This document shows, in pieces, positions 6,522 to 21,552 of a stretch of 64,000 nucleotides of DNA. The stretch's first letter is position 1. Each line of letters opens with the position of its first letter. Location: NCBI RefSeq assembly GCF_026586665.1, contig NZ_JAODIY010000013.1, forward strand, positions 124,001 through 188,000. Reading direction: 5' to 3'. The DNA comes from Halovenus rubra (GTDB taxonomy: Archaea > Halobacteriota > Halobacteria > Halobacteriales > Haloarculaceae). The translations under genes and the position numbers were made by a program. The notes under the pieces were generated by a model. The model saw only the letters and a list, made by a program, of their open reading frames with translations, was not told the origin of the DNA and did not search any database.

Positions 6522-8942
6522 TCAGTCAGAGCAAGCAGACGGCGTCGCTGTCGGGTCAGGGGTGGTAGTCTGTGTCTCCAGTTGCGTCCATTCGAGATCA
6601 CTTTCGTAGTGGAATGCTCGGTGGTCTTGCTGTGGGTCGATGGCAGTGAGTGACAGCCAGTTGTTGTCCAGTAACTCCTGTAACTGCTGGTTTTCGGAAA
6701 GAATCTGGTTGATGAGTTTGACTGGTGCATGGATTACTGTCGAGAGACGCAACGGCTGGTGATACAGTTCGTTATCCGCACTCATGAGCGACTGAAGCGG
6801 AAGACCACTCATCAGGTCGCCGCCGTTGCCTTGATAGACGCCGATGTTGCCGACAGGATTGTGAGTTACTTTCGACCCACTCCCGTAGGTTGCGTTGTCG
6901 ATTGTGGCAAAGTAGTACTGGGTGTTAATCCACTGTGTAACAACCATCGGACCAGTCAGAATCGCTTCAAGCGCGTCGCCCTCCGAATCGGTACGCCAGT
7001 CATAGGAGTGGAGGAACGAGCGACCATCGAGGTCTACGCCATCAGTCAGTTCACGCGGCCCAATAACGAACCCGGCGTTCCCTGCCAGCCCCCACTCCGG
7101 GCGTGTCTCCGCCCAATCTGCTGCCCGACGCTCGGTTTCGCGGACGCCCGACTCCGTTTTGGCACCCATGTCACCGGCACGTTCACTTGCGGCACCGGCC
7201 CGAGCAGTCCCAAGGTCTGTACGAAGTTGGTCGATATCTGTCTGGTGTGATTCTGGCACATCGCCGGTGTACAGTTCGACCTCGTCAGTGGTCGTGTTGT
7301 GTTCACCGGCGATAAAGACAGTGTCGTCGGGAATATCGAAGCCACGTTCCCGAAGTTGTGCCTTGACGGCGTCCTCGTTTGCGATAGTTGCAAGGACACG
7401 AGCGCTTGGCCCACCGGGATTACCGGCACAGGCACCGCAGTCAAGACTTGAATCGAACGGGTTGTTCGCAGTCTGACTTGCATGGCCAGCGAAGACGACA
7501 ACGCGCGCGAACTGTTCCCAGCCCATGAGGTCGAAAGCTGTTGCCGCATAGTCGACTTTCTGTTCAAGCGTGAGTCCACTGGGAAGGTTGTGTGTAGCGT
7601 CCGGGTCGTGGTCAACAGACGGCTCACAGAACTCATCGTCATCAGGGACTGTCTCGTCTGTCCGGTCCAGCAGGTCATAGACGCGTCCGGGAAGAAGTGT
7701 CCGAGCGGCCAGCCCAGCCCCGTACCCAATGCCAGTGCTTTCGACGAAGCTGAACGCGGTAGCAGCGTTAGATTCAAGCCGACGGATTGTGGCTTTACCA
7801 GCCCCAAGCGCCGATTGCCAGCGGTCGTATTCGTCTTTGTTGCCTGCTTCCTGCTCCGTAGGCTGGTCAGCAATGTGATGTGTGGCGTCAAGAATCGGCG
7901 GACACGCATCCACTGTCACATCCGACCCGTACCCATCGTAGCGCATCGGGATACCGAAAAACCCGGCATACCCGTGTGTCTCGTAGTTGCCTGTGGCCTC
8001 GATATGCCGGCGAATTATCTCTGACCGCGTGTCGATACAGAAGACGAACTGTGCATCCGGGCGCTCGGTTTTGGACTGCTCAGCGAGCGCCTCAGAGCGG
8101 TTGGTGAGTGAGCCGACTAGCTCATTCCGATAGCTTGCCTCCCAGGCAGTTAGCCAGACCTCTGGAAGTGGCAAAGCACCATCCGGAGCTGCCCACGACT
8201 CATCATGTTCTGACGCGTTTGAAGGGACGACGGGGGCATCAAAACAGTGTACGAGCGTTAGCCGGGCTGCAAGATACCCGTGCAGCGTAATTGGATAGCT
8301 AGACTGCCACGCATCATTCTTGGAAGCACGTTGCTTGATAAATCCCGTCCAACCCGGAAGGGCTGTGAGGTGATACTCGAAGATATCGTTCCACCGGCCA
8401 AAAGCATACTCGTCAAGACAGTGCTGGATAGCTTCGATGGGTTTGTCGGGGATTTCCTTGACACCAGCTGGAATCTCACTATCGTGTGCTGCGACGGCCC
8501 GGAACGCCGCGTAAAAACCCTGCTCGCGGTTTGGCATCGACCACTTTGCCTGTCCCTGGTCGAGAAAGGCTGCAAGCCACTTCGTCAACACTGCGTCCAC
8601 ACGGTCCATCGTCGTCACAGATTCTGTCGGCCTGTCAGTTTCTGTGTCGGCCATACGGTCGAGTGCAGTTTCCGGGTCGATATTGTACCCGTGTGTGGTC
8701 AGTTCGTTTTGTAACACGTCCCTATCAATCCGTCCAGTCCCAACTGCGCGACGGAATACCTCAACACTCGGGTAGCCGTCACCACCGAGAAGCTGTTGGG
8801 CGTCTTCAACTGCCTCGTGAAACGGCTGGTCCTCAAAGCCCGCAAGCGGGTTGGCCGTCACAAACGAATGCAACGGCCAGACCGCGCCGACCGACTCTGC
8901 TGTGCTCTCGATACTTGCGTGGATTGAAGATTCAGTACTCAT
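6522..8942 (-). CDS. dabA: Inorganic carbon transporter subunit DabA (DUF2309/UPF0753)
   Basis: 806 residues. DabA is the zinc-containing, beta-carbonic-anhydrase-like subunit that, with membrane protein DabB, drives energy-coupled CO2 hydration and accumulates bicarbonate. The proposed zinc and catalytic residues are visible: C302 and D304 in FVFCIDTRSE, H487 in VVFAGHASQ and C502 in SLDCGACAGNPGG. The 15-residue H-to-C spacing equals that in the studied Halothiobacillus protein as I remember it. The start overlaps the end of dabB by 11 bases, so the two are co-transcribed and perhaps translationally coupled. The tail is convergent with trmY across ~350 bases. The role in a heterotroph is probably bicarbonate supply to carboxylases. 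Confidence 0.93.
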   Translation of the reverse strand: MSTESSIHASIESTAESVGAVWPLHSFVTANPLAGFEDQPFHEAVEDAQQLLGGDGYPSVEVFRRAVGTGRIDRDVLQNELTTHGYNIDPETALDRMADTETDRPTESVTTMDRVDAVLTKWLAAFLDQGQAKWSMPNREQGFYAAFRAVAAHDSEIPAGVKEIPDKPIEAIQHCLDEYAFGRWNDIFEYHLTALPGWTGFIKQRASKNDAWQSSYPITLHGYLAARLTLVHCFDAPVVPSNASEHDESWAAPDGALPLPEVWLTAWEASYRNELVGSLTNRSEALAEQSKTERPDAQFVFCIDTRSEIIRRHIEATGNYETHGYAGFFGIPMRYDGYGSDVTVDACPPILDATHHIADQPTEQEAGNKDEYDRWQSALGAGKATIRRLESNAATAFSFVESTGIGYGAGLAARTLLPGRVYDLLDRTDETVPDDDEFCEPSVDHDPDATHNLPSGLTLEQKVDYAATAFDLMGWEQFARVVVFAGHASQTANNPFDSSLDCGACAGNPGGPSARVLATIANEDAVKAQLRERGFDIPDDTVFIAGEHNTTTDEVELYTGDVPESHQTDIDQLRTDLGTARAGAASERAGDMGAKTESGVRETERRAADWAETRPEWGLAGNAGFVIGPRELTDGVDLDGRSFLHSYDWRTDSEGDALEAILTGPMVVTQWINTQYYFATIDNATYGSGSKVTHNPVGNIGVYQGNGGDLMSGLPLQSLMSADNELYHQPLRLSTVIHAPVKLINQILSENQQLQELLDNNWLSLTAIDPQQDHRAFHYESDLEWTQLETQTTTPDPTATPSACSD

Positions 8943-10419
8943 TGTACTCCTCCGTCGAAGTTAACAAGGCCTCTGTGGGGGGCTCGCTCGCGTTTATAAG
9001 GGTGACGTACAACCGATGACTCCGCTTGTAGACGCCGGTTTCAATTACCACATATGCGAGAACGAACGTGACAGTAACCAGCCCGTGAATGACCGTCAGC
9101 TCCGCAGGGGAGCCAACGGCGGGAAGCCCGGCTATCAGTTCAGTCACCGCACCGTAGGCTGCTGCGTACAGCACAATAGCCGGCAACGCAATGAGGGGGA
9201 CGGCACCGTACCGGACAGGGGTTGGAAGGGAAGCGTGTCCAGCAATGTCGCGCGCAGCATGCAAGACGGTCAAAACAACAAGCAGTGTGAGCAAGATACC
9301 AGTGTCAAACTTTGTTCCTTTTCCGGTGAGGAGCGCAAACAACCCGCCACCGGCGAGGCCGGTGACACCAATCACAACAGCGTCGACTAGACCCATCGAC
9401 ACCGATTCTGTGGACTGTCCGGGACTCTCGTGAGCGACCTGTCCACCAGTAGAGAGGAACTGATAGGCCTTGTAAAAGCCATGCAAGATGAGATGTGTAA
9501 GGGCAGCGGCGAAAAAGCCCAAGCCAGCTTGCATAATCATAAATCCCATCTGTCCAACTGTTGAACAGCCAAGTTCGCCTTTCACGTCCGTCTGGACAGC
9601 CTTTAAGAGTTTACCAAAGAGCGCGCTCGCCGCCCCGACAAGCACGACAACAAGCATAAATGCGGGTTCGACGGTGACGACAGGTGCAAACCGCACCAGC
9701 AGGACACCACCAGCGTTGACGAAACCGGCGTGCATCAGTGCCGAGGCCGGTGTCGGTGCTGTCATCGACGAAAGGAGCCACGTGTGAAACGGGACAAGCG
9801 CCGATTGAATCATTGCTGCGAGTAACAACCCTCCTGTTGCGATCAGGACAGTCGGTGTGGAGGCGTTCGAAATTGCCGGCGAGATGCCTGAGACAGTCGT
9901 GGCACCCGTCTCTAACCATAGCGTTAGGAGTGCGACCCCCAGAAACGTGGTGCTTGCGAGAAAGGCCTTACGCGCAACGGAGGCTGCGGCCTGTGCTTGT
10001 TTCCAGCCGTCGGCGTGTCCGATGAGTTCGGCCATTATAAGCCCCATCACAAGCCAGACAGCCCCGAAGAGTACGAAGTTGTTTGTGGCAACTAGCATCA
10101 TCACGACAAGCGTGAACGCGAACACCCGAACGAAAAACCGATTGATTGTCTCACTACCAGCCATGTACCGTTGGGAGTAGCTGTGGATGATTCCACTGAA
10201 AAACGTAACCGTCACCCACATCACAGTCGTCAACCCATCGACAGCAACCAACTCTGTCAGTGTCCAAGAAGTGTCCTGCCAAAGCTGCACGCCAGCTATG
10301 CCAATACACACAACCCACAACGTCCAGACAAGACCTGTCAAAACCGCCGGCAGTCGACCGCTTTCGTCGGTTGGGGTTGGCATTTGGCCAATCGTTTGCA
10401 TTCCTGTATCTCCACTCAT
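8932..10419 (-). CDS. dabB: DabB, proton/cation-conducting membrane subunit (NuoL/MrpA-like)
   Basis: 495 residues with about 13-14 hydrophobic segments and the antiporter-like core of complex I NuoL and Mrp subunits. Visible landmarks are IIHSYSQRYMAGSE, the segment ALVPFHTWLLSSMTAPTPASALMHAGFVNAGG (a proton-channel helix; quoted in parts: VPFHTWLL, PTPASALMHAG) and GCSTVGQMGFMIMQAGLG. It is followed immediately by dabA, the diagnostic pairing, so it is the energising partner in bicarbonate accumulation rather than a respiratory subunit. Upstream lies an 8-bp inverted repeat (10448-10472) that may regulate the pair. Confidence 0.92.
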   Translation of the reverse strand: MSGDTGMQTIGQMPTPTDESGRLPAVLTGLVWTLWVVCIGIAGVQLWQDTSWTLTELVAVDGLTTVMWVTVTFFSGIIHSYSQRYMAGSETINRFFVRVFAFTLVVMMLVATNNFVLFGAVWLVMGLIMAELIGHADGWKQAQAAASVARKAFLASTTFLGVALLTLWLETGATTVSGISPAISNASTPTVLIATGGLLLAAMIQSALVPFHTWLLSSMTAPTPASALMHAGFVNAGGVLLVRFAPVVTVEPAFMLVVVLVGAASALFGKLLKAVQTDVKGELGCSTVGQMGFMIMQAGLGFFAAALTHLILHGFYKAYQFLSTGGQVAHESPGQSTESVSMGLVDAVVIGVTGLAGGGLFALLTGKGTKFDTGILLTLLVVLTVLHAARDIAGHASLPTPVRYGAVPLIALPAIVLYAAAYGAVTELIAGLPAVGSPAELTVIHGLVTVTFVLAYVVIETGVYKRSHRLYVTLINASEPPTEALLTSTEEYNEY

Positions 10420-12256: not shown

Positions 12257-13105
12257 TTATCGGGTCGAATTCAGGTAATCGAGAGCCTCCCGGGCCGCAC
12301 GAGTTGGTTCACCGGGATACGTGTACAGCTCAAGTGTTGCGAATCCATCGTACCCAATCTGTTCGAGACTGTCGAATATGGCCTCGAAATCGAGATCTCC
12401 TTCCCCAGGGATTCGATGATAATGCTTGCCACGGCGTCCACCAACAATGTCTTCAAGATGAATTCCGGTGATATATCCGTCAGTTCGTGAAATCGTCTCC
12501 GGCAATGACTCACCGTAGACAGCAGCGTGCCCGAGGTCCAAATTGATGCCAAGCGAGTCGCGACCGATATCATCAATCAGGTCAAGGACCTCGCCGGTAG
12601 ATTCGACGAGTAACTCTGGCTCAAACTCGATACCGATATCGATACCTTTCGGTTCGGCGTCGTCGAGGATTTTGTGGAGCGAATCAACAAGGATGTCACG
12701 GGCCTGTTCAGGCGGGTTTCCGGGGAGAGACTGGCCAGTCGTAACGCTTACTGCTGGAGCACCGACCTGTTTTGCGAGGTCAATAGCATCTTTTGTGTAC
12801 TCGATTCGCCAACGGCGGTCATCCTCATTTGCGGTACAGAGACTCGGCTCGAAAAACGCAGATGGCGGAGCGTCGTCGTAGTACCCAGTTGCTGTGTTCG
12901 CGTTTATGTTCGAAACCTCAAGTCCCGTCTCTTCGAGATGGTCGACAACTGCTTTCCGGTCTTTGTGCCCAAACTCCGGGAAGAACGCATGCGGGTCGTC
13001 AGCGAGAATTTCAACACCGTCATACCCAACGTCTGCGATGCGCTCAACTGCCGCCGGGAGTGAAAATCGAGTGTATGCGTTCGTCGAAAAAGCGAGTTTA
13101 ACCAT
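12257..13105 (-). CDS. Xylose-isomerase-like TIM barrel, EboE-like paralogue A
   Basis: 282 residues from ATG 13105; an upstream in-frame start at 13222 would add an unrelated basic stretch and overlap the UbiA gene. AP-endonuclease-2/sugar isomerase fold: LAFSTNAYTRFSL, GYDGVEILADDPHAF, EVSNINANT, then probable metal ligands in IEFEPELLVE, NLDLGHAAV, GIHLEDI and ATLELYTYP. It is clearly paralogous to the protein at 14055-14888, with which it shares FSTNA, YDGVEIL, a GLE(V/I)SN segment, HLEDI and ELYxY. It is the last gene of the minus arm of the ebo-like cluster, 47 bases after the UbiA gene. Presumed role: isomerase/epimerase or lyase on a sugar or cyclitol phosphate. Confidence 0.82.
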   Translation of the reverse strand: MVKLAFSTNAYTRFSLPAAVERIADVGYDGVEILADDPHAFFPEFGHKDRKAVVDHLEETGLEVSNINANTATGYYDDAPPSAFFEPSLCTANEDDRRWRIEYTKDAIDLAKQVGAPAVSVTTGQSLPGNPPEQARDILVDSLHKILDDAEPKGIDIGIEFEPELLVESTGEVLDLIDDIGRDSLGINLDLGHAAVYGESLPETISRTDGYITGIHLEDIVGGRRGKHYHRIPGEGDLDFEAIFDSLEQIGYDGFATLELYTYPGEPTRAAREALDYLNSTR

Positions 13106-13152
13106 ATGTGAGCGTCTTCTTCCAGCGTAAAACAACTTCTTCTCCGTGCCCT

Positions 13153-14058
13153 TTAGGAGATATCGAACAACGTAGCGAGTCCGACCGCCGGGAGCAGGAA
13201 ACAGAGAACGGCAAATCCCCACAAAGGAGTTACCGTAGCTGCGAATGCAGCGTCAAGAACAACCTGTGCAAGCACACAGGTTCCGATAGCTGAGCCGATA
13301 ACGCTGGGTTGTAGAGTCACATACGCTCGGCGAAGCGCCCTGCCCGTCCAGAGCAAAAATCCAAACGCAAGCGTGAGTGAAAGTATGATTCCAGCGGTTG
13401 ACGGCGGTTTTGCACCCACACGCCACACAACCGCGAGTGATGCAAGCACAACGGCCCCGCTTGCGATGCCAATGGCTTTGGGGTTACCGCCGCCGGTTTC
13501 ACCCTCGGCCAGATACGTGACGGCGGCAATGTAAGTAAGTACAACCGCTGGGACGGCCAACGTTGCAGCCGGTTGGTCGACTACGGGGCCAGCCAGTGAG
13601 ACGCCAAGAAGGACGTTTAAACCCCGTGCCCCGCCCATAAACAGAAAGCCAACTGCACCACCTTTGAACACACCGTCATAGAGCAGTATGCAGACAGCAA
13701 GTCCACCTGCGATACCTCCAGACCAGCGACCGCCGGCCACTGCTGAAATGGCAATACCACCGACTAACAACACGAGACCGAACGCGAACGCGCTGGGTTG
13801 TGAAATGTCACCAGCCGGAATCGGACGCCCAGGACGTTCTCGTGTATCTTCAGCAACGTCGAAATAATCATTCAGGGTCGTCCCCGCAGCGTAGAGGCAT
13901 ATCGAGCCAAAAGCAAGCACGGCCAGCACTCCGCCATCGATGTCAGTCCCAGCCCCCGCAACAAGTGCACCACCAAGCAAGACATCAGGCGGCGCAGTAA
14001 AGAGGTTCGGAGCTCGAACAAGCCTCGCGTACGAAGTAACCGTCCGGACGATTCTCAT
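13153..14058 (-). CDS. UbiA-family membrane prenyltransferase, EboC-like
   Basis: 301 residues with about nine hydrophobic helices. The first Asp-rich motif of UbiA enzymes is intact (NDYFDVAEDTRERPGRPIP), which binds the prenyl diphosphate through Mg2+. The second half has LLYDGVFKGGAVGFLFMGG followed by ARGLNVLLGVS, a pattern I associate with EboC-type members rather than UbiA, MenA or the geranylgeranylglyceryl-phosphate enzymes of lipid synthesis. It overlaps the upstream TIM-barrel gene by 4 bases (ATGA), so they are co-translated. Neighbours (TatD hydrolase, two TIM barrels, cyclitol synthase, phosphatase) support an ebo-type pathway in which this protein attaches a polyprenyl chain to a polar, perhaps cyclitol, acceptor in the membrane. 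Confidence 0.86.
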   Translation of the reverse strand: MRIVRTVTSYARLVRAPNLFTAPPDVLLGGALVAGAGTDIDGGVLAVLAFGSICLYAAGTTLNDYFDVAEDTRERPGRPIPAGDISQPSAFAFGLVLLVGGIAISAVAGGRWSGGIAGGLAVCILLYDGVFKGGAVGFLFMGGARGLNVLLGVSLAGPVVDQPAATLAVPAVVLTYIAAVTYLAEGETGGGNPKAIGIASGAVVLASLAVVWRVGAKPPSTAGIILSLTLAFGFLLWTGRALRRAYVTLQPSVIGSAIGTCVLAQVVLDAAFAATVTPLWGFAVLCFLLPAVGLATLFDIS

Positions 14059-14888
14059 TCTGTCCAGCCGTGTTCAGAAAGGTATGCCATCGCCTGCTGG
14101 GCCGTCTGCTGGGCAGTCTCCTCGTAGGGGTATAGCTCGATAGTAACAAACCCATCATATCCGTCGGCTTCGACCGCTTCGAGAAAGGCTTGAATGTCCA
14201 TCCCGCCATCACCGAGTTGTGTATGTTCGTGGTCCCTGTTTTGGGGGATGTCTTCAAGATGATAATGGGTGGTGTACGACGAGAGTTTTTCAACGAGTGC
14301 CGCCGGGTCCTCACCAACACAGAAGAAGTGACCCGCATCGAAGTTGCATTTTAGCCGTGGCGAGTCAAACCGGTCTGCAAGTTCGAGAAACTCGTTTGCT
14401 GTCTCTATCAGCAGATCGGGTTCGGGTTCGACCATCACGTCGACGCCAACCTCCTCAGCCGTTTCGAGAACGTCATCGAGTCCAGTCTCGAAGGTGTCGA
14501 GTGCCCACTCTCGTGACCGGCCGTCCGGAATCGGTCCACCTGGTTCGATAGAGATATGACTCATCTCAAGTGTATCCGCGACTTCCAGCGCACGAATCGT
14601 GTAGTCGATACGGCGCTGCCGGTAGGACTCATCTTCCTCGATAAACGATGGATGGTGGAAGTCCTCGATAGCAGTGAGCATAAACGCGTTCCCGTTACTG
14701 ATTTCTAGGCCTGCGTCGTCGAGGGCATCGCGGACGCGTTCGATATCTGCTTCCGTTGTGTCTGGCGGATACAGGTGTGGAGAATCGAGCAGTATCTCGA
14801 CGCCGTCGTACCCCACCTCGCCAAGAGCCGCTATTGCTGCTTCGAGGTCGTACTGCCGGAACGCGTTAGTTGAGAATCCAAAATCCAT
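14055..14888 (-). CDS. Xylose-isomerase-like TIM barrel, EboE-like paralogue B
   Basis: 277 residues. Same fold and motifs as the 12257-13105 protein: FGFSTNAFRQYDL, GYDGVEILLDSPHLYPP, LEISNGNAF, and probable metal ligands in VEPEPDLLIE, CNFDAGHFF, HYHLEDIP and VTIELYPYEE. In place of the glycine-rich RRGKHYH loop of paralogue A it has NRDHEHTQLGDGGMD, suggesting a different substrate. It begins 3 bases after the TatD-like gene and overlaps the UbiA gene by 4 bases, so it sits inside the operon. Function in sugar or cyclitol metabolism is inferred; it resembles the 'metabolite traffic protein EboE' class. Confidence 0.83.
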   Translation of the reverse strand: MDFGFSTNAFRQYDLEAAIAALGEVGYDGVEILLDSPHLYPPDTTEADIERVRDALDDAGLEISNGNAFMLTAIEDFHHPSFIEEDESYRQRRIDYTIRALEVADTLEMSHISIEPGGPIPDGRSREWALDTFETGLDDVLETAEEVGVDVMVEPEPDLLIETANEFLELADRFDSPRLKCNFDAGHFFCVGEDPAALVEKLSSYTTHYHLEDIPQNRDHEHTQLGDGGMDIQAFLEAVEADGYDGFVTIELYPYEETAQQTAQQAMAYLSEHGWTE

Positions 14889-14891
14889 GGC

Positions 14892-15698
14892 TCACAGTTC
14901 GTACTCGAAGTTCGGAGACTGGCTGAAAAACTCTCGTGGGTTGTCGAAGACGACTTTGCGGACGGTGTCGCGGTCCCAGCCCCTATCGAGCATCTTGTCG
15001 CGAGCTTTTGGGACGGCAAGTGGGTCCGACGGGTCCCAGTCTGCTGCGCTGTTGAGCAACATCTTATCAGTGCCGTACTCTTCTAGCAGGTCGATAGTCG
15101 TCTCGTCGTCAATTTTGCCAGGATACAGTGTGAATCCGACCCAGCAGTCAGTCTGCAATGAAATATCGACTGTGTTCTCGGTGTTGTGGTCGATGACGAT
15201 TCGTTCCTCGGTAACGTCTTCGTCCTGAATGAGTTCAACCAAGCGCTCTGTACCCTCTGGTTTGTTTGTGTGTGGCGTGTGAACGATTACTGGCAGTTCG
15301 CGCTCCTCGGCCATCTGCAACTGACGACGGAACGCTTTTTCTTCGGCTTCCGTGCCCTGGTCAAGACCGATTTCGCCGACGCCGACGACGTTATCGCGGT
15401 CGAGATACTCCGGGATACGGTCCATCACGCGTTCGGCCATCTCTGGGTAGTTCGCTTCTTTCGGTTCCAGCGCAATCGTCACGTAGTGGTCGATACCAGC
15501 AGCCCTCTCGGCACGCTTCGTTTCGAAGTCGATTATTTGTTCGAAATAGTCAAAGAACGACTCCGCGTGTTGTTTGTCTGTTCCACTCCAAAATGCGGGT
15601 TCGATACAGCACTCGATCCCCGACAGTCGTGCTCGGTCGTAGTCGCTTGTCGAGCGGGAGACCATGTGCATGTGCGGGTCAATAATTGGAATCGACAT
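14892..15698 (-). CDS. TatD-family metal-dependent hydrolase, EboB-like
   Basis: 268 residues. TatD/amidohydrolase metal ligands are present: PIIDPHMHM (HxH), VVGVGEIGLDQ (Glu), LPVIVHTPH, RIVIDHNTEN, and an Asp in LLNSAADWDPSDP. ATG 15698 is chosen over ATG 15710 because a TATA box (15723-15730) predicts transcription start near 15700 and because IPIIDPHMHM should be close to the N-terminus. It is the first gene of the minus-strand operon. TatD proteins are often nucleases, but in ebo clusters the EboB member accompanies EboC and EboE, so a metabolic hydrolase role (ester or phosphodiester of a small molecule) seems as likely. Confidence 0.85.
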   Translation of the reverse strand: MSIPIIDPHMHMVSRSTSDYDRARLSGIECCIEPAFWSGTDKQHAESFFDYFEQIIDFETKRAERAAGIDHYVTIALEPKEANYPEMAERVMDRIPEYLDRDNVVGVGEIGLDQGTEAEEKAFRRQLQMAEERELPVIVHTPHTNKPEGTERLVELIQDEDVTEERIVIDHNTENTVDISLQTDCWVGFTLYPGKIDDETTIDLLEEYGTDKMLLNSAADWDPSDPLAVPKARDKMLDRGWDRDTVRKVVFDNPREFFSQSPNFEYEL

Positions 15699-15722
15699 GC
15701 ATGCTGTCATTTGTAGAGCAGA

Positions 15723-15730
15723 TATTAATA
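15723..15730 (-). promoter_or_regulatory. TATA box of the minus arm of the ebo-like cluster
   Basis: TATTAATA on the minus strand is centred ~28 bases before ATG 15698, the expected spacing for an archaeal promoter with a near-leaderless message. Confidence 0.6.
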
Positions 15731-15786
15731 CTCTCTTTCTTTGGTGGACTGTTCAGTTTCGTTGACGCCTTTGGACAAGAGAAGTA

Positions 15787-15794
15787 GATATATC
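15787..15794 (+). promoter_or_regulatory. TATA box before the zinc-ribbon gene
   Basis: GATATATC is centred ~28 bases before the GTG at 15819 and lies only ~60 bases from the opposing promoter, so the two arms of the cluster could share control elements. Confidence 0.5.
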
Positions 15795-15818
15795 CTATCA
15801 GAGGGCTCACCTCCGCCT

Positions 15819-16028
15819 GTGCCCGAAACCTGCCCTCACTGTGACGAACCAATTGAATCAGAGCGACGGAATCCTGACGACCAACGGCCGTATGAAGTGT
15901 GGCGCTGTTTGAGCTGTGAGAATGAATGGCGCCACCCCGAGGAGACAGTTCTCGACAGCACACTGGATTTCAGTGAGTGCAACGACCAACTCTCCCGTCG
16001 CCAATCCGACACAAACCTGAGCTGGTAA
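15819..16028 (+). CDS. Small zinc-ribbon protein
   Basis: 69 residues from GTG 15819; the frame is open back to an ATG at 15741, but TATA spacing and the conserved start of the ribbon favour the shorter form. Two CxxC knuckles (ETCPHCDEP and WRCLSCENEWRHPEE) about 25 residues apart form a single zinc ribbon, followed by an acidic tail. It lies between the two divergent arms of the ebo-like cluster. It could be a regulator or an accessory protein of the cluster, or an unrelated small haloarchaeal protein; I do not recognise a named family. Confidence 0.68.
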   Translation: MPETCPHCDEPIESERRNPDDQRPYEVWRCLSCENEWRHPEETVLDSTLDFSECNDQLSRRQSDTNLSW

Positions 16029-16176
16029 TCTCTCAGTTCTATTCAGTTGATATAAACTATTCTTTAGTTTTTTCAACTATGCAGGCGAAAGCAAACGTAC
16101 CGGCAACTGACTGTAGGGAGAATTTAGCGTCTAAAAGGGCGACAGTAGCCGTTTCTAGGCAGATAACTGAGCCGCA

Positions 16177-16186
16177 CAATATAATA
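16177..16186 (+). promoter_or_regulatory. TATA box of the plus arm of the ebo-like cluster
   Basis: CAATATAATA is centred ~28 bases before ATG 16210, predicting a leaderless mRNA for the inositol-phosphate-synthase-like gene and the phosphatase gene behind it. Confidence 0.6.
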
Positions 16187-16209
16187 CTGTACAGCCATAA
16201 TTTCGACGT

Positions 16210-17406
16210 ATGAAGACAGGTGTGTGGCTGATTGGCGCGAGAGGAAACGTGGCAGCAGTTTCTATCGTCGGTGCGAAGGCAGTCGCCAGTGGCATTACAG
16301 AGACGACAGGGATGGTCACTGCGCGTGAGCCGCTGTCAGACCTTGCGCTGCCAGAGGTCGACGACCTCGTTTTTGCTGGGCACGATATTAGGTCACAGAG
16401 TATCGTCGAAACAGCAGAGGCAGCATCCGCATCTGGCGGTGTCCCACCACAGTCGACAATCGAGGCTGTCAGAAGCGACGTTGAAGCCGTCGACAGTCGT
16501 ATCAAGACGGGAACAGCAATCAACTGCGGGCAGGTCGTTGGTGACATCGCAGAGGGGAACGCTGCCGTCAACCAGACCGTTCCCGACCTTGTCTCGGCAA
16601 TTCGAGATGATTACGAATCGTTTGTCGCGGAACATGATCTCGACCGTCTTGTTGTTCTCAATGTCGCATCAACGGAGCCCCCGCTGGAAAACACCGATGC
16701 CTACGCGACAGCCGACGAACTCGAAGCTGCAATCGAGAATGATGACCGAGCACTTCCAGCCAGTGTCCTTTATGCATATGCGGCAGTCAGTGAGGGACAC
16801 CCGTACATCAACTTCACACCCAGCACGGGAAGTGATCTCGGCGGAGTACGTGAGGTCGCGAGGCGCAACGACGTCCCTCACATGGGACAAGATGCCAAAA
16901 CGGGAGAGACACTGGTAAAGTCTGCGCTTGCACCGATGTTCGCAGGCCGAAACCTCCGTGTCCTCTCGTGGGAAGGACACAATATTCTCGGCAACACAGA
17001 CGGGCTCGTTCTGGATGACGAAGCGAACAAAGCAGGCAAAGTCAAGAGTAAAGACGGACTCCTCGAAGAGATTCTTGGCTACGAGACACAGAGCCGGGTT
17101 CGTATCGATTACACACCGTCACTCGGAGACCGCAAGACTGCATGGGACCATATCCACTTCAAGGGCTTCCTCGGAACGGAGATGAAACTCCAGTTCACAT
17201 GGGAAGGCTCTGATTCAGCCCTTGCTGCACCGCTGGTTCTTGACCTCGTTCGGCTCGTTGCACACGCAGATGCAAACGGCGAATCTGGGGTGCAACCACA
17301 GCTTGCTTCGTTTTTCAAATCACCGATGGCGTATGAAACACATGACCTCTCCCAACAGTTCGAGCAACTGCGGGAGTACGCACACACATACCTACCTGAG
17401 ACATGA
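16210..17406 (+). CDS. Myo-inositol-phosphate synthase family enzyme
   Basis: 398 residues. The N-terminal Rossmann motif (GVWLIGARGNVAAVSIVGAK) binds NAD. Family landmarks follow: LVVLNVASTEPP, YINFTPSTGSD, GQDAKTGETLVKS, RVLSWEGHNILGNTDG, KVKSKDGLLEEILG and RIDYTPSLGDRKTAWDHI. Members convert glucose-6-phosphate to inositol-phosphate by internal oxidation, aldol cyclisation and reduction. It heads the plus arm of the ebo-like cluster, overlapping the next gene by 4 bases. In bacterial ebo clusters the cyclase is EboD, related to dehydroquinate synthase; here this enzyme may fill that position. No CDP-alcohol phosphotransferase lies nearby, which argues against a simple archaetidylinositol route. 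Confidence 0.9.
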   Translation: MKTGVWLIGARGNVAAVSIVGAKAVASGITETTGMVTAREPLSDLALPEVDDLVFAGHDIRSQSIVETAEAASASGGVPPQSTIEAVRSDVEAVDSRIKTGTAINCGQVVGDIAEGNAAVNQTVPDLVSAIRDDYESFVAEHDLDRLVVLNVASTEPPLENTDAYATADELEAAIENDDRALPASVLYAYAAVSEGHPYINFTPSTGSDLGGVREVARRNDVPHMGQDAKTGETLVKSALAPMFAGRNLRVLSWEGHNILGNTDGLVLDDEANKAGKVKSKDGLLEEILGYETQSRVRIDYTPSLGDRKTAWDHIHFKGFLGTEMKLQFTWEGSDSALAAPLVLDLVRLVAHADANGESGVQPQLASFFKSPMAYETHDLSQQFEQLREYAHTYLPET

Positions 17407-18785
17407 CAGACCAACGCCCTCAAACAGAGACAGCACAGCGTATAATTGTCCTCGACGTGGTTGGGCTCGAAACCAAGCACATCGATGCAGGACTGGCACC
17501 AAATATCGCAGCTTTCCTTGAAGGCCACCCGACAGCTCCGCTTACCCCTCCGTTTCCTGCAGTTACGCTTTCTTCACAAACGACACTTGCGACAGGACAG
17601 TCACCGGCGACACACGGTGATGTTTCTAACGGAGAGTACAACCGGACTGATGACAGCGTTGCATTCTGGGAGCGCGACCGCGCTGACCGAACCCGTCTCT
17701 GGGACGCAGCGAGTAGCGACACAGGCCTGACAACGGGCGCGCTATTCTTCCAGCATCTTATTGGGACAGCCGCTGACGTTGCAGTGACACCATCCCCAAT
17801 CGAGGACGAGAACAATAATCTCCTTGAGATGGACTGTTGGACGAACCCGGACGGGTTCTATGAGACCCTAGAAGAAGAATATGGCCACTTCCCGCTGCAT
17901 AACTACTGGGGACCAACAGCGAACGAGCAAAGCAGCGAGTGGATACTCTCTGCCGCACGCGAGTCGATTACACGACACGACCCGGATTTACTTTGGGTTT
18001 ATCTCCCCCACCTCGACTACGATGCACAGCGCCATGGCCCGGATTCCTCGGAGATGCAAGACGCTGTTGGCGTTATTGACGAACTCGTCGGGGAGTTCCT
18101 TGAGTGGCTTCGCGACAGTCATCGATGGGACGAAACGGCAGTAAACGTCGTCAGCGAGTATGGGTTTCATGCTGTTGACACGCCAGTATTTCCCAACCGT
18201 GCGCTCCGAGAAGCTGGTCTGTTGTCTATTGAAAAGGGACGTGAAGGCGGAGAAGTGGTCGATATTCCTGGCTCAGCTGCGTTCGCTATGGTCGATCACC
18301 AAGTGGCACACGTCTATACCGATGACGACGTGACGGGAAACGCCCGCGACGTGCTTGGGGCTCTCGACGGGGTTGAAACAGTCGTCACTGACACAGCAAA
18401 GGAGTCATACGGGGTTTCCCATCCTAACAGCGGAGATCTAGTCCTCGTTCCAGAGCAAGATGCGTGGTTCCAGTACTACTGGTGGGCCGACGACGCGGAT
18501 GCCCCCTACTACGCGAGAGATATGGACATCCACGAAAAGCCCGGATACGATCCGTGTGCGCTCTTTTTCGGTGACGATGGACTTATCTCTCTCGACGCGA
18601 CGAAGATCAGCGGGTCACACGGGCGCGTCGACGCTCCCGGCTTCTACGGGATCGGTGGGCCTGCGGCGCCTACCGTGGAGTTCGATGAGATAGACGCACA
18701 GACAGTTGCTCCCACGATTGCGGACCTACTCGGTATCACGAGTGACCTCTCGATGACGTTCGAGGGGAACTCTATTCTTGAATAG
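17403..18785 (+). CDS. Alkaline-phosphatase-superfamily phosphodiesterase/pyrophosphatase, EboF-like
   Basis: 460 residues, no signal peptide. Two-metal motifs of the nucleotide pyrophosphatase/phosphodiesterase branch are readable: VLDVVGLE (metal Asp), the nucleophile region PFPAVTLSSQTTLATGQSPA (Thr), WVYLPHLDYDAQRHGPDS (Asp and His), VVSEYGFHAV (where DHG is usual; here SEYG, an apparent change) and ISGSHGRVDAPGF (His). The ATGA overlap with the inositol-phosphate-synthase-like gene shows one operon. EboF proteins of bacterial ebo clusters belong to this superfamily. Likely role: removing phosphate or cleaving a phosphodiester or pyrophosphate from the cluster's intermediate. Confidence 0.84.
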   Translation: MTDQRPQTETAQRIIVLDVVGLETKHIDAGLAPNIAAFLEGHPTAPLTPPFPAVTLSSQTTLATGQSPATHGDVSNGEYNRTDDSVAFWERDRADRTRLWDAASSDTGLTTGALFFQHLIGTAADVAVTPSPIEDENNNLLEMDCWTNPDGFYETLEEEYGHFPLHNYWGPTANEQSSEWILSAARESITRHDPDLLWVYLPHLDYDAQRHGPDSSEMQDAVGVIDELVGEFLEWLRDSHRWDETAVNVVSEYGFHAVDTPVFPNRALREAGLLSIEKGREGGEVVDIPGSAAFAMVDHQVAHVYTDDDVTGNARDVLGALDGVETVVTDTAKESYGVSHPNSGDLVLVPEQDAWFQYYWWADDADAPYYARDMDIHEKPGYDPCALFFGDDGLISLDATKISGSHGRVDAPGFYGIGGPAAPTVEFDEIDAQTVAPTIADLLGITSDLSMTFEGNSILE

Positions 18786-19079: not shown

Positions 19080-19991
19080 ATGGTTCGCAACGTTGCAGAG
19101 GAGATGGCCGAACTCGAGCCTGAGGATTTTTACCTGCTGTCCGGGGTCGAGCACGGGATGCGGTTCTCGGAGTACGTCAACCGGGAGAAGCTGCCGGAAT
19201 TTTCCAGACTGACTGTTGAAGATGTGGACTACCGCCTCGACCGCTGTGAGCGCCGAGAGTTAATTGAGCGCAAAACAATTCAGTACGAGGGATTCCGCCT
19301 CACGTTCGAGGGGTACGACGCCCTCGCGTTGCACACCTTCGCCGAGCGAGAGACCATCGACGGGATGGGATCGTCCCTCGGCGTTGGAAAAGAGAGTGAC
19401 GTGTACGAGGTGGAATCATATCGACCGTTCGCTCTCAAATTCCACCGCGAAGGGTACACTGATTTCCGCGAAGTCAACCGCGAACGAGAGTATACGTCTG
19501 ACCGGGAGCACGTCTCTTGGATGTACACGGCACGCAAAGCAGCCGAGCGAGAACATGAGGCACTCGAAGCATTGTACCCCGCGGTTTCAGTTCCACAACC
19601 AATCGACCACAACAGGCACGCAATCATCATGGAACGGCTCGACGGCGTCGAGCTCGAGCGAACAAAGCTCGAACCCAAGCAAGTCATCCCAGTGCTTGGA
19701 CTGGTCCTCTCGGAGATGGCGACTGCCTACCAAGAGGGGTACGTACACGCGGACATGAGTGAGTACAATCTGTTCATCGATACTGACGGAGTCACGCTGT
19801 TCGACTGGCCACAGGCTGTCCCGACGACTCACGAACACAGCGACGAGTTGCTCGAACGAGATGTCGAAAATATTGTTGGCTACTTCCAACGCAAACATCC
19901 CGGACAAATTGATGATGCCGACACCAGTGCGATTACCGCAGCTATCATCGATGGGATGTTCGACGACGTGACCGACTATCTCGAAAGCTGA
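19080..19991 (+). CDS. rio2: RIO2 atypical serine kinase/ATPase
   Basis: 303 residues. The N-terminal winged helix specific to RIO2 (residues 1-90) is followed by the kinase domain: nucleotide loop LGVGKESDVYEVE, catalytic lysine in FALKFHREG, hinge IIMERLDGVEL, catalytic loop YVHADMSEYNLF and metal-binding LFDWPQAV. RIO2 acts in late maturation of the small ribosomal subunit. A TATA-like TTAAAC lies ~27 bases upstream. It stands alone on the plus strand. Identification is firm from the winged helix plus the STGKESD-like loop. Confidence 0.95.
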   Translation: MVRNVAEEMAELEPEDFYLLSGVEHGMRFSEYVNREKLPEFSRLTVEDVDYRLDRCERRELIERKTIQYEGFRLTFEGYDALALHTFAERETIDGMGSSLGVGKESDVYEVESYRPFALKFHREGYTDFREVNREREYTSDREHVSWMYTARKAAEREHEALEALYPAVSVPQPIDHNRHAIIMERLDGVELERTKLEPKQVIPVLGLVLSEMATAYQEGYVHADMSEYNLFIDTDGVTLFDWPQAVPTTHEHSDELLERDVENIVGYFQRKHPGQIDDADTSAITAAIIDGMFDDVTDYLES

Positions 19992-20304: not shown

Positions 20305-21552
20305 TCACTCAACAAAGACAACTCCTTTTTGATTTTGGGACTGGTGGGGAGTGCAGCAGTACTTGTATACACCCGGATTTTCGAAGGTATAGCTCCATGT
20401 CTTCCCATCTCCGACGAGGACACCGCTGTCGAATGCCTCATCGACGTGCGTAACCGAGTGTGGGACCTCCCCGCCAACCCATTCCCACTCGACTGTTGTC
20501 CCTGCCTCGATGCGAACTGCCGGTGGCTCGAAGACAAACGTTCCGTCGACGCCAATTTCAGTTGCATCGCCTGTAAGTACGGGCTCTCCGTCTAGCGAAA
20601 CGATATCGTCGTCGTAGTTCGGGATATCCGAGAGGAAAGCCTCGACTCCGGTGTCCGTCTCCCGCTGTGTCGACTCACTGCCATCGAGGGGACCTGTCAC
20701 GACGACGCTGACGCCGGGAAAGCCGACGAGAAATCCTTCAGCGATATCGGCTGCCTCCGCCGTTGTCCAGAAACTGACCACAGCAGTCCACTCGTTGCGC
20801 TGTGTGACGGTCGTTTTGACGTGGGAGTCATACCGCTCAACATCACCCCGGAACCCCTCAGCCTCAGCTTCTATCTCGTCGACAGGAGAGTCAGAGTAAA
20901 CAATAACACCGTACTGTTTGGGCTTGTAGTCTTCACCCGCGGTGAAACCCAATGTATCGAGATGTTCTGTGATAGTTGCTGTTGGGATACCGCTGTTATC
21001 ATCGTCAGTGTCTCCATCAGTGAGTGGGCCAGCAACCATATCGAATACACCATCGACCTCCGCGAAATAGCCTTTTGCAGTGTTTGCTGTGTCTTTGGCA
21101 CTCCAGACAGTCGCAATTGCTGCTAACTCCTCGTGTTCTTTTACCACAGTCATCTTGTGGGAGTCGTATCCAGAAAAGTTACCTCGCAAGTCGTCAATTT
21201 CTGTCTTGACTGTGCTGTACTCGCTTGTAGAGTAGAGAATAACGCCGTACTGGCCCGACTCGTAGTCGGCCCCGGCCTCGAATCCGAGTGCATTGAACTG
21301 CTCGATAATCGACTCCTCAGGAATTTTAGGCGTTTCTTTCGCAGGTGTTTCAGTGGAGTCATCGCTTTTTTCGGTCTGTTTGGGCGTCTCAGTTGCGGTT
21401 GCCGTCTGTGTTGGCTCAACCGTCTCCTGGTCACCCTCATCAGAATTACTGAGACAACCAGCTATCGCGGCCATCGCAATGGTGCCACTGGCAAGGAATG
21501 TACGTCGTGTGCTATTGGTACTTCGAGACACGCCTCTCTCATCACCATCCAT
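20305..21552 (-). CDS. Tat-exported blue-copper (halocyanin-like) lipoprotein with duplicated domain and Gln at the axial position
   Basis: 415 residues. The leader has a twin-arginine motif (TRRTFLASG) and lipobox (AIAGC), so it is a lipid-anchored exported protein. A Thr/Glu-rich linker leads to two tandem ~95-residue repeats (QYGVILYS...AGPL and QYGVIVYS...TGPL), then a type I copper domain (VEWEWVGGEVPHSVTHVDEAF ... YKYCCTPHQSQNQKG; quoted in parts). Cu ligands His, Cys and His are present, but the residue 5 after the second His, normally Met (PHKALGMKG in the halocyanin at 34660), is Gln, as in stellacyanins. The promoter carries a DtxR-type palindrome shared with the divergent haem monooxygenase, suggesting iron control. 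Confidence 0.88.
   Translation of the reverse strand: MDGDERGVSRSTNSTRRTFLASGTIAMAAIAGCLSNSDEGDQETVEPTQTATATETPKQTEKSDDSTETPAKETPKIPEESIIEQFNALGFEAGADYESGQYGVILYSTSEYSTVKTEIDDLRGNFSGYDSHKMTVVKEHEELAAIATVWSAKDTANTAKGYFAEVDGVFDMVAGPLTDGDTDDDNSGIPTATITEHLDTLGFTAGEDYKPKQYGVIVYSDSPVDEIEAEAEGFRGDVERYDSHVKTTVTQRNEWTAVVSFWTTAEAADIAEGFLVGFPGVSVVVTGPLDGSESTQRETDTGVEAFLSDIPNYDDDIVSLDGEPVLTGDATEIGVDGTFVFEPPAVRIEAGTTVEWEWVGGEVPHSVTHVDEAFDSGVLVGDGKTWSYTFENPGVYKYCCTPHQSQNQKGVVFVE

Follow-up and report, generated by a model that had tools for sequence, protein, structure and literature searches.

Positions 12257-18785 of the 64,000-nucleotide stretch of Halovenus rubra DNA analyzed here (the window) hold a compact set of genes that raises a question: does an archaeon carry its own version of the bacterial ebo cluster and, if so, which enzyme takes the place of the cyclase EboD? 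The source genome is haloarchaeal, 3.57 Mb in 48 contigs and 98.7% complete. The genes form two tight divergent groups. The minus-strand group encodes, in transcription order, a TatD-superfamily hydrolase (TatD), the second of two short TIM barrels (TIM2), a UbiA prenyltransferase and the first TIM barrel (TIM1); the plus-strand group encodes a small CxxC protein, then myo-inositol-1-phosphate synthase (MIPS), then a phosphodiesterase (PDE). All of the large genes gave strong Pfam matches, i.e., AP_endonuc_2 twice, UbiA, TatD_DNase, NAD_binding_5 with Inos-1-P_synth, and Phosphodiest (E 1e-18 to 1e-50). A previous interpretation made without database searches (the sequence-only reading) had named these genes and proposed that the archaeon has an ebo-like cluster in which MIPS occupies the cyclase position; every gene is present, and the core of the proposal is supported by gene co-occurrence, by adjacency and by homology to EboB and EboF. 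On balance, we judge it rather probable that these genes represent, in an archaeon, a variant of ebo with two TIM barrels, in which MIPS and not the dehydroquinate-synthase-like (DHQS-like) EboD is the cyclase, and of which the product is a prenylated, cyclitol-type compound.

The closest solved structure to the window MIPS is that of Archaeoglobus fulgidus MIPS (1u1i, 293 bits). In an alignment, the window protein keeps all of D225, N255, D261, K274, K278, K306, D310, D332 and K367, which we take to be the catalytic-site positions of the A. fulgidus enzyme. The same nine are kept in all 37 haloarchaeal copies and, bar one D310N, in seven copies from Actinomycetota and Gemmatirosa, so that genuine MIPS activity is to be expected of the window protein. 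EboA, EboD and EboE were found in none of the haloarchaeal loci examined (the EboA profile being a small one, of three sequences), and no protein of the DHQS/EboD family (PF01761) is encoded anywhere in the window genome; EboA and EboD had likewise been reported missing in the sequence-only reading. A search for relatives of EboB yielded 80 named bacterial loci, and gene plans were assigned where a UbiA was present with a cyclase or a short TIM barrel. A short sugar-isomerase TIM barrel (at least one) is present in 9/9 of the loci with MIPS, versus 0/35 of the loci with the EboD-type plan. Thus, MIPS probably takes the cyclase slot of the ebo cluster.

The distribution of the genes was followed in 243 haloarchaeal genomes of the order, representing 77 genera. 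The cluster UbiA is present in 33 of them, from 15 genera and several families. MIPS of the window type is present in 34 genomes, these being 31/33 of the UbiA carriers versus 3/210 of the others (Fisher p 2e-33, uncorrected for kinship), and among the three non-carriers G139 has a truncated cluster, TatD-MIPS-PDE, at the end of a short contig. A Pfam search added MIPS-family genes in just three further genomes of the order. MIPS therefore accompanies the cluster and is not a general haloarchaeal gene. Carriers whose MIPS is not linked to the cluster mostly encode one at another place in the genome, and in G077, G093, G061 and G166 the PDE gene adjoins it there. As a separate observation, three genomes without the cluster UbiA (G066, G152 and G081; loci L119, L120 and L121) hold a second haloarchaeal MIPS subfamily, which was caught by Pfam and missed by the window MIPS query at E 1e-15. 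Near MIPS-less clusters, oxidoreductases judged by eye to be Gfo/Idh/MocA-like are encoded at L049:13150-14247 and L054:15527-16648.

Neighbourhoods of about 20 kb were then compared, 33 in all, from the 32 other carrier genomes. The arrangement recurs in all 33 at 40-90% protein identity, which argues that it is not due to chance. TIM2 and TatD genes stand beside UbiA in 33/33 neighbourhoods (with TatD shifted by 4 kb in L043), TIM1 is missing from L058 alone but is sometimes displaced, and the MIPS-PDE pair adjoins UbiA/TIM2/TatD in most. The genes are almost always adjacent in other haloarchaeal genomes, where rare adjacency would have refuted the sequence-only reading; the archaeal cluster is real and conserved. 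Its distribution is patchy: the cluster UbiA is not found in the congener G182, and within the same family a match occurs in just one further genome. Synteny with G182 covers 6.6-12.2 kb of the window and ends just short of TIM1, as expected of a block that was gained or lost. In a wider sample of the phylum, TatD was found in 4/247 genomes, all haloarchaeal. Two further candidate partners, a DHPS/Mur-ligase fusion (c3) and an FAA hydrolase (c17), were set aside, as each seems to reflect the synteny of one lineage.

We further analyzed how the remaining proteins relate to EboC, EboB and EboF. The window UbiA scores 187.5 bits with the EboC model NF035940 (cut-off 250) and 158.6 bits with the SCO3242 model NF045897 (cut-off 260), and the DGGGP synthase model, at 62.7 bits, is far under both. 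A tree was built from bacterial EboC and SCO3242 proteins, haloarchaeal UbiA proteins and the six other UbiA proteins of the window genome. The window protein falls in a haloarchaeal clade (SH-aLRT 98) nested within the Ebo-type EboC/SCO3242 set, and the six paralogues split off (SH-aLRT 93); the tree was a quick one with long branches, leaving its deep order and exact root unsure. The family scores and the separation from the paralogues rule out a DGGGP synthase or menaquinone enzyme. The sequence-only reading had described this protein as EboC-like and would have been refuted by a place in the GGGP synthase/menaquinone clades; the tree agrees with that description, and the score stays below the EboC cut-off.

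The window TatD is 44% identical over 261 aa (1e-84) to the EboB-position protein of Aureibacter (Bacteroidota) and has the motifs EPAFW, HTPH and SAADW in common with EboB. TatD nuclease models score just 43 bits, and with that identity to EboB an ordinary TatD nuclease is ruled out. The window PDE aligns over more than 420 aa with EboF-position proteins, at 34% and 41% identity, and carries the EboF signatures SEYG and YxPHLDY, of which SEYG stands where classical NPP enzymes have SDHG. Judged by sequence, TatD and PDE are therefore true relatives of EboB and EboF, as had been claimed for both.

The two TIM barrels had been taken for EboE-like proteins, and this did not hold: TIM2 scores 22.7 bits with the EboE model NF035939, against a cut-off of 250, and TIM1 is not listed as a match, which rules out EboE for either. 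They are instead a distinct pair that is common to bacterial two-TIM clusters. The TIM1 proteins of these clusters are 48-49% identical to the window TIM1 and the TIM2 proteins 41-47% identical to the window TIM2; the two-TIM plan is therefore common to bacteria and archaea. For TIM1, the IolO, IolE and 3-dehydroshikimate dehydratase models all remained under cut-off, and the profile relatives of TIM2 include AsbF, IolI and IolE. The AF2 fold models are confident (pLDDT 88.5 for TIM1 and 93.9 for TIM2), and their fold matches are keto-sugar epimerases, IolI and Art22, the nearest to TIM1 being MJ1311 (3wqo), D-tagatose 3-epimerase and Art22. A literature search for Art22 returned nothing.

Features of the cluster in the window, with the basis of each assignment
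Feature	Position	Strand	Basis
TIM1, a non-EboE TIM barrel, xylose-isomerase-like (superfamily of keto-sugar epimerases/isomerases)	12257..13105	-	PF01261 1.7e-46
UbiA prenyltransferase, EboC/SCO3242-type	13153..14058	-	NF035940 and NF045897 scores, tree
TIM2, second xylose-isomerase-like TIM barrel	14055..14888	-	PF01261 2.2e-43
TatD-superfamily metal hydrolase, EboB-type	14892..15710	-	Identity to Aureibacter EboB-position protein, motifs
Small CxxC...CxxC protein (zinc-ribbon-like)	15741..16028	+	Open reading frame, homologues at equivalent place
MIPS, probable cyclase slot	16210..17406	+	PF07994 and PF01658
Phosphodiesterase, alkaline-phosphatase superfamily, EboF-type	17403..18785	+	PF01663 5.6e-50

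The genes are closely packed, with overlaps of 4 bp between TIM2 and UbiA and between MIPS and PDE (the latter already pointed out in the sequence-only reading) and a gap of 3 bp between TatD and TIM2. TIM1 had been started at an upstream GTG at 13222; it is the ATG at 13105 that is conserved as its start. The conserved TatD protein begins near 15695. The CxxC mini-protein starts at TTG 15741 or GTG 15819, the latter being more likely. Homologues 47-64% identical to it lie at the equivalent place in the haloarchaeal loci L044, L054, L055 and L063, another lies 5' of the unlinked MIPS in L110, and family searches with the mini-protein gave no match.

The MIPS-type variant of ebo is defined by a MIPS gene that goes with a UbiA of the EboC/SCO3242 type and by an additional TIM barrel of the sugar-isomerase kind, and the haloarchaeal cluster fits this definition. 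The bacterial loci show that the variant is not confined to archaea, a correction to the sequence-only reading: it also occurs in Streptomyces, in other Actinomycetota and in Gemmatirosa. The EboD-type plan accounts for 35 loci, a plan with MIPS, one short TIM barrel and EboE for seven, and a two-TIM plan (TIM1-EboB-TIM2-UbiA, without EboE or EboA) for three, namely L149 and L186, both with MIPS, and L150 from Paenibacillus phytorum. Streptomyces plasmids have the order MIPS - SCO3242 UbiA - sugar isomerase - EboA - TatD - EboE - phosphodiesterase, and Nonomuraea and Gemmatirosa have similar gene sets. This actinobacterial cluster (Streptomyces plasmids L071 and L076; Nonomuraea L073) resembles the haloarchaeal one in its MIPS (46%) adjoining UbiA, its EboB (46%), its EboF (41%) and its sugar-isomerase TIM barrel; it differs in retaining EboA and EboE, in having a single short TIM barrel and in a UbiA of the separate SCO3242 clade. 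The bacterial two-TIM clusters (L150; the Proteobacteria metagenome-assembled genome (MAG) L186; bacterium R3-B46, L149) have the same EboB-TIM2-UbiA core order with TIM1 beside it, EboF, TIM barrels 41-49% identical to the haloarchaeal pair and, in 2/3, MIPS, whereas TIM1 stands first in bacteria and last in haloarchaea, and the bacterial UbiA branches elsewhere in the EboC tree.

The Paenibacillus UbiA exceeds the EboC cut-off (269 bits against 250), and the cluster, at L150:1152-12808, continues with genes for an inosose dehydratase resembling IolE (226 bits, against a cut-off of 290), a cyclase resembling AroB, and a ThuA-GSDH-CBM protein that is secreted, where GSDH is glucose/sorbosone dehydrogenase. 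L150 differs from the haloarchaeal cluster in this cyclase and dehydratase and in having no MIPS within the 12.8 kb covered. The two enzymes lend support to ketocyclitol chemistry and to a cyclase slot whose occupant can be swapped, and L150 is perhaps the most informative bacterial locus for solving the pathway. Compared with the classical operon (EboA-F; Yurchenko et al., 2016, PMC5133447; Aureibacter plasmid L074), the haloarchaeal cluster shares the EboB (44%) and EboF (34%) orthologues, a UbiA that the tree places in the EboC clade, xylose-isomerase-like TIM barrels, compactness and the logic of cyclase plus prenyltransferase, but has MIPS in place of the DHQS-like EboD, no EboA, and two short TIM barrels in place of an EboE of about 390 aa. 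It is ebo-like by gene content but lacks EboA, EboD and EboE, and we therefore class it as a variant of ebo and not with the classical operons. Two observations were made alongside. In L125-L132 and L135-L137 (planctomycete and related), an EboB-like gene is 46-63% identical to Gemmatirosa EboB, and no further ebo gene was detected within the stretch examined except in L130. Directly 5' of the classical operon of Aureibacter, L074:3174-6234 encodes a 587 aa hypothetical protein and a ferritin-like protein.

A secreted partner recurs with the cluster. In 13/33 haloarchaeal loci the cluster contains a gene for a GSDH-like secreted propeller or has one no more than 0.2 kb away (Pfam-confirmed for a sample), and five of the 13 have it between UbiA and TIM1; by our estimate, chance would give fewer than one such neighbour over the 33 loci (0.02 per locus, from about 4.6 such genes in a carrier genome and 20 kb of about 3.7 Mb). 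Three of the four cluster-linked GSDH proteins checked have a plastocyanin-like domain, and one has a recognized Tat signal. Carriers have 4.6 GSDH genes per genome, versus 1.6 in non-carriers (p 4e-12, uncorrected for kinship). GSDH/ScyE-type genes also lie near ebo genes in Paenibacillus, Gemmatirosa, Microvirga, Siccirubricoccus, Geminicoccaceae, Dyadobacter, S. camelliae, a Myxococcales MAG and an Alphaproteobacteria MAG, a list given with no background rate. In Nostoc, five ebo genes were deleted singly, each was needed for export of the scytonemin monomer, and ebo acts just upstream of the periplasmic secreted protein ScyE (Klicki et al., PMC6282210).

Taken together, the gene set suggests a route in which MIPS, given its kept active-site residues, would convert glucose-6-phosphate to a cyclitol phosphate; TIM1, TIM2 and the EboB-type hydrolase, to go by their families, would reshape the cyclitol by isomerization or dehydration; the EboF-type PDE would take off or transfer phosphate; and the EboC-type UbiA would add an isoprenoid to give a membrane-bound prenylated cyclitol or derivative. 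This proposed cyclize-modify-prenylate chemistry is plausible. The prenylated product would then probably serve an extracellular oxidation or export step with GSDH-type proteins; because GSDH propellers are embedded in many clusters and cyanobacterial ebo acts just before ScyE, its role is probably extracellular.

Several points weigh against this reading. The window UbiA remains under the EboC cut-off, and in two carriers, G078 and G194, MIPS and EboD are both missing. Import of a cyclitol may make up for this in the two, whose clusters (L049 and L054) are those with the oxidoreductases identified by eye. The relatives of the TIM barrels act on ketoses, MIPS yields a polyol and the window cluster is without an oxidase; a ketone for the TIM barrels would require that MIPS release an inosose phosphate or that an enzyme be encoded elsewhere. 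The window cluster has no GSDH gene beside it, though the genome has three, and the number of GSDH genes may vary with genome size or lifestyle. We know of no established reaction of an ebo pathway, and the sole in vitro work on EboC that we found concerns farnesylation of quinolines, not cyclitols (PMC9235831).

Other destinations for the same genes were weighed. It is rather unlikely, in our view, that ebo in bacteria and archaea makes from a cyclitol a prenylated polyphenol- or quinone-like redox lipid that serves secreted propeller oxidoreductases (ScyE, and GSDH whether or not it has plastocyanin) as membrane partner or as cofactor. Ring closure would there be followed by dehydration by AsbF/IolE-like TIM barrels and then prenylation, and the cyanobacterial 'export' phenotype would be indirect. 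We regard as improbable that the cluster supplies inositol for ordinary inositol phospholipids (archaetidylinositol), with UbiA and the TIM barrels as bystanders or in ether-lipid tailoring. The canonical catalytic residues of MIPS would suit this, as would the rank of DGGGP synthase as next-best family of the UbiA behind EboC and SCO3242 and the three CDP-alcohol phosphotransferases of the genome. The sequence-only reading had argued against phospholipid synthesis from the absence of a CDP-alcohol phosphotransferase, which is true of the locus and fails genome-wide. The near-restriction of MIPS to cluster genomes replaces it as the better argument, most haloarchaea being without MIPS, and the bacterial kin surround MIPS with EboA and EboE, not with lipid genes.

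A catabolic locus, at which epimerases, hydrolase, PDE and secreted GSDH act on environmental sugars or inositol and UbiA is incidental, has little probability in our estimation. The resemblance of TIM1 and TIM2 to IolO, IolI, IolE and ketose epimerases, the GSDH linkage and the oxidoreductases seen by eye near the MIPS-less L049 and L054 speak for it; yet MIPS is biosynthetic, UbiA is always accompanied by TIM2 and TatD, no family of sugar transporters is found repeatedly alongside the cluster, and TatD and PDE are relatives of EboB and EboF. The requirement for all five singly deleted genes in Nostoc is the attraction of a lipid carrier, with the prenylated cyclitol moving another small molecule over the membrane and not itself the end product. 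Here the haloarchaeal neighbourhoods show no evident conservation of a flippase or transporter and, besides GSDH, no common cargo gene set was seen, and we give this equally little credence. The two-TIM variant of ebo with MIPS as cyclase is the reading that we retain.

Three other places in the window were noted in passing. At 6522-10419 (minus strand), within the part syntenic with G182, an 806 aa protein overlaps a 495 aa NuoL-like membrane protein; the two look by eye like a DabA-DabB inorganic-carbon uptake pair, and NCBIfam NuoL-like matches were obtained for the second protein alone. A RIO-type kinase relative is encoded at 19080-19991 (plus strand; score 79 bits, where the cut-off for haloarchaeal Rio1 is 480), and 20305-21552 (minus strand) combines a heme-binding-protein-like region (199 bits, cut-off 446) with a C-terminal halocyanin domain.

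Clusters of the ebo type span many bacterial phyla and algal plastids and are required for a sunscreen pigment; their product was not known in the papers that we found. By term look-up, PMC5133447, PMC6282210 and PMC9235831 mention neither inositol nor an archaeal ebo cluster, and a literature search with the names SCO3242 and EboA yielded nothing functional. A well-understood enzyme in the cyclase slot fixes the likely start of the pathway, glucose-6-phosphate to inositol phosphate, so that the pathway would be traceable with labelled inositol. One of the relatives in actinobacteria belongs to a model organism, S. coelicolor, in which SCO3242-SCO3243 are situated in the CDA cluster region (PMC3610822). 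The recurrent secreted GSDH propeller is a first clue to the role of the ebo product, and one that offers a testable idea.

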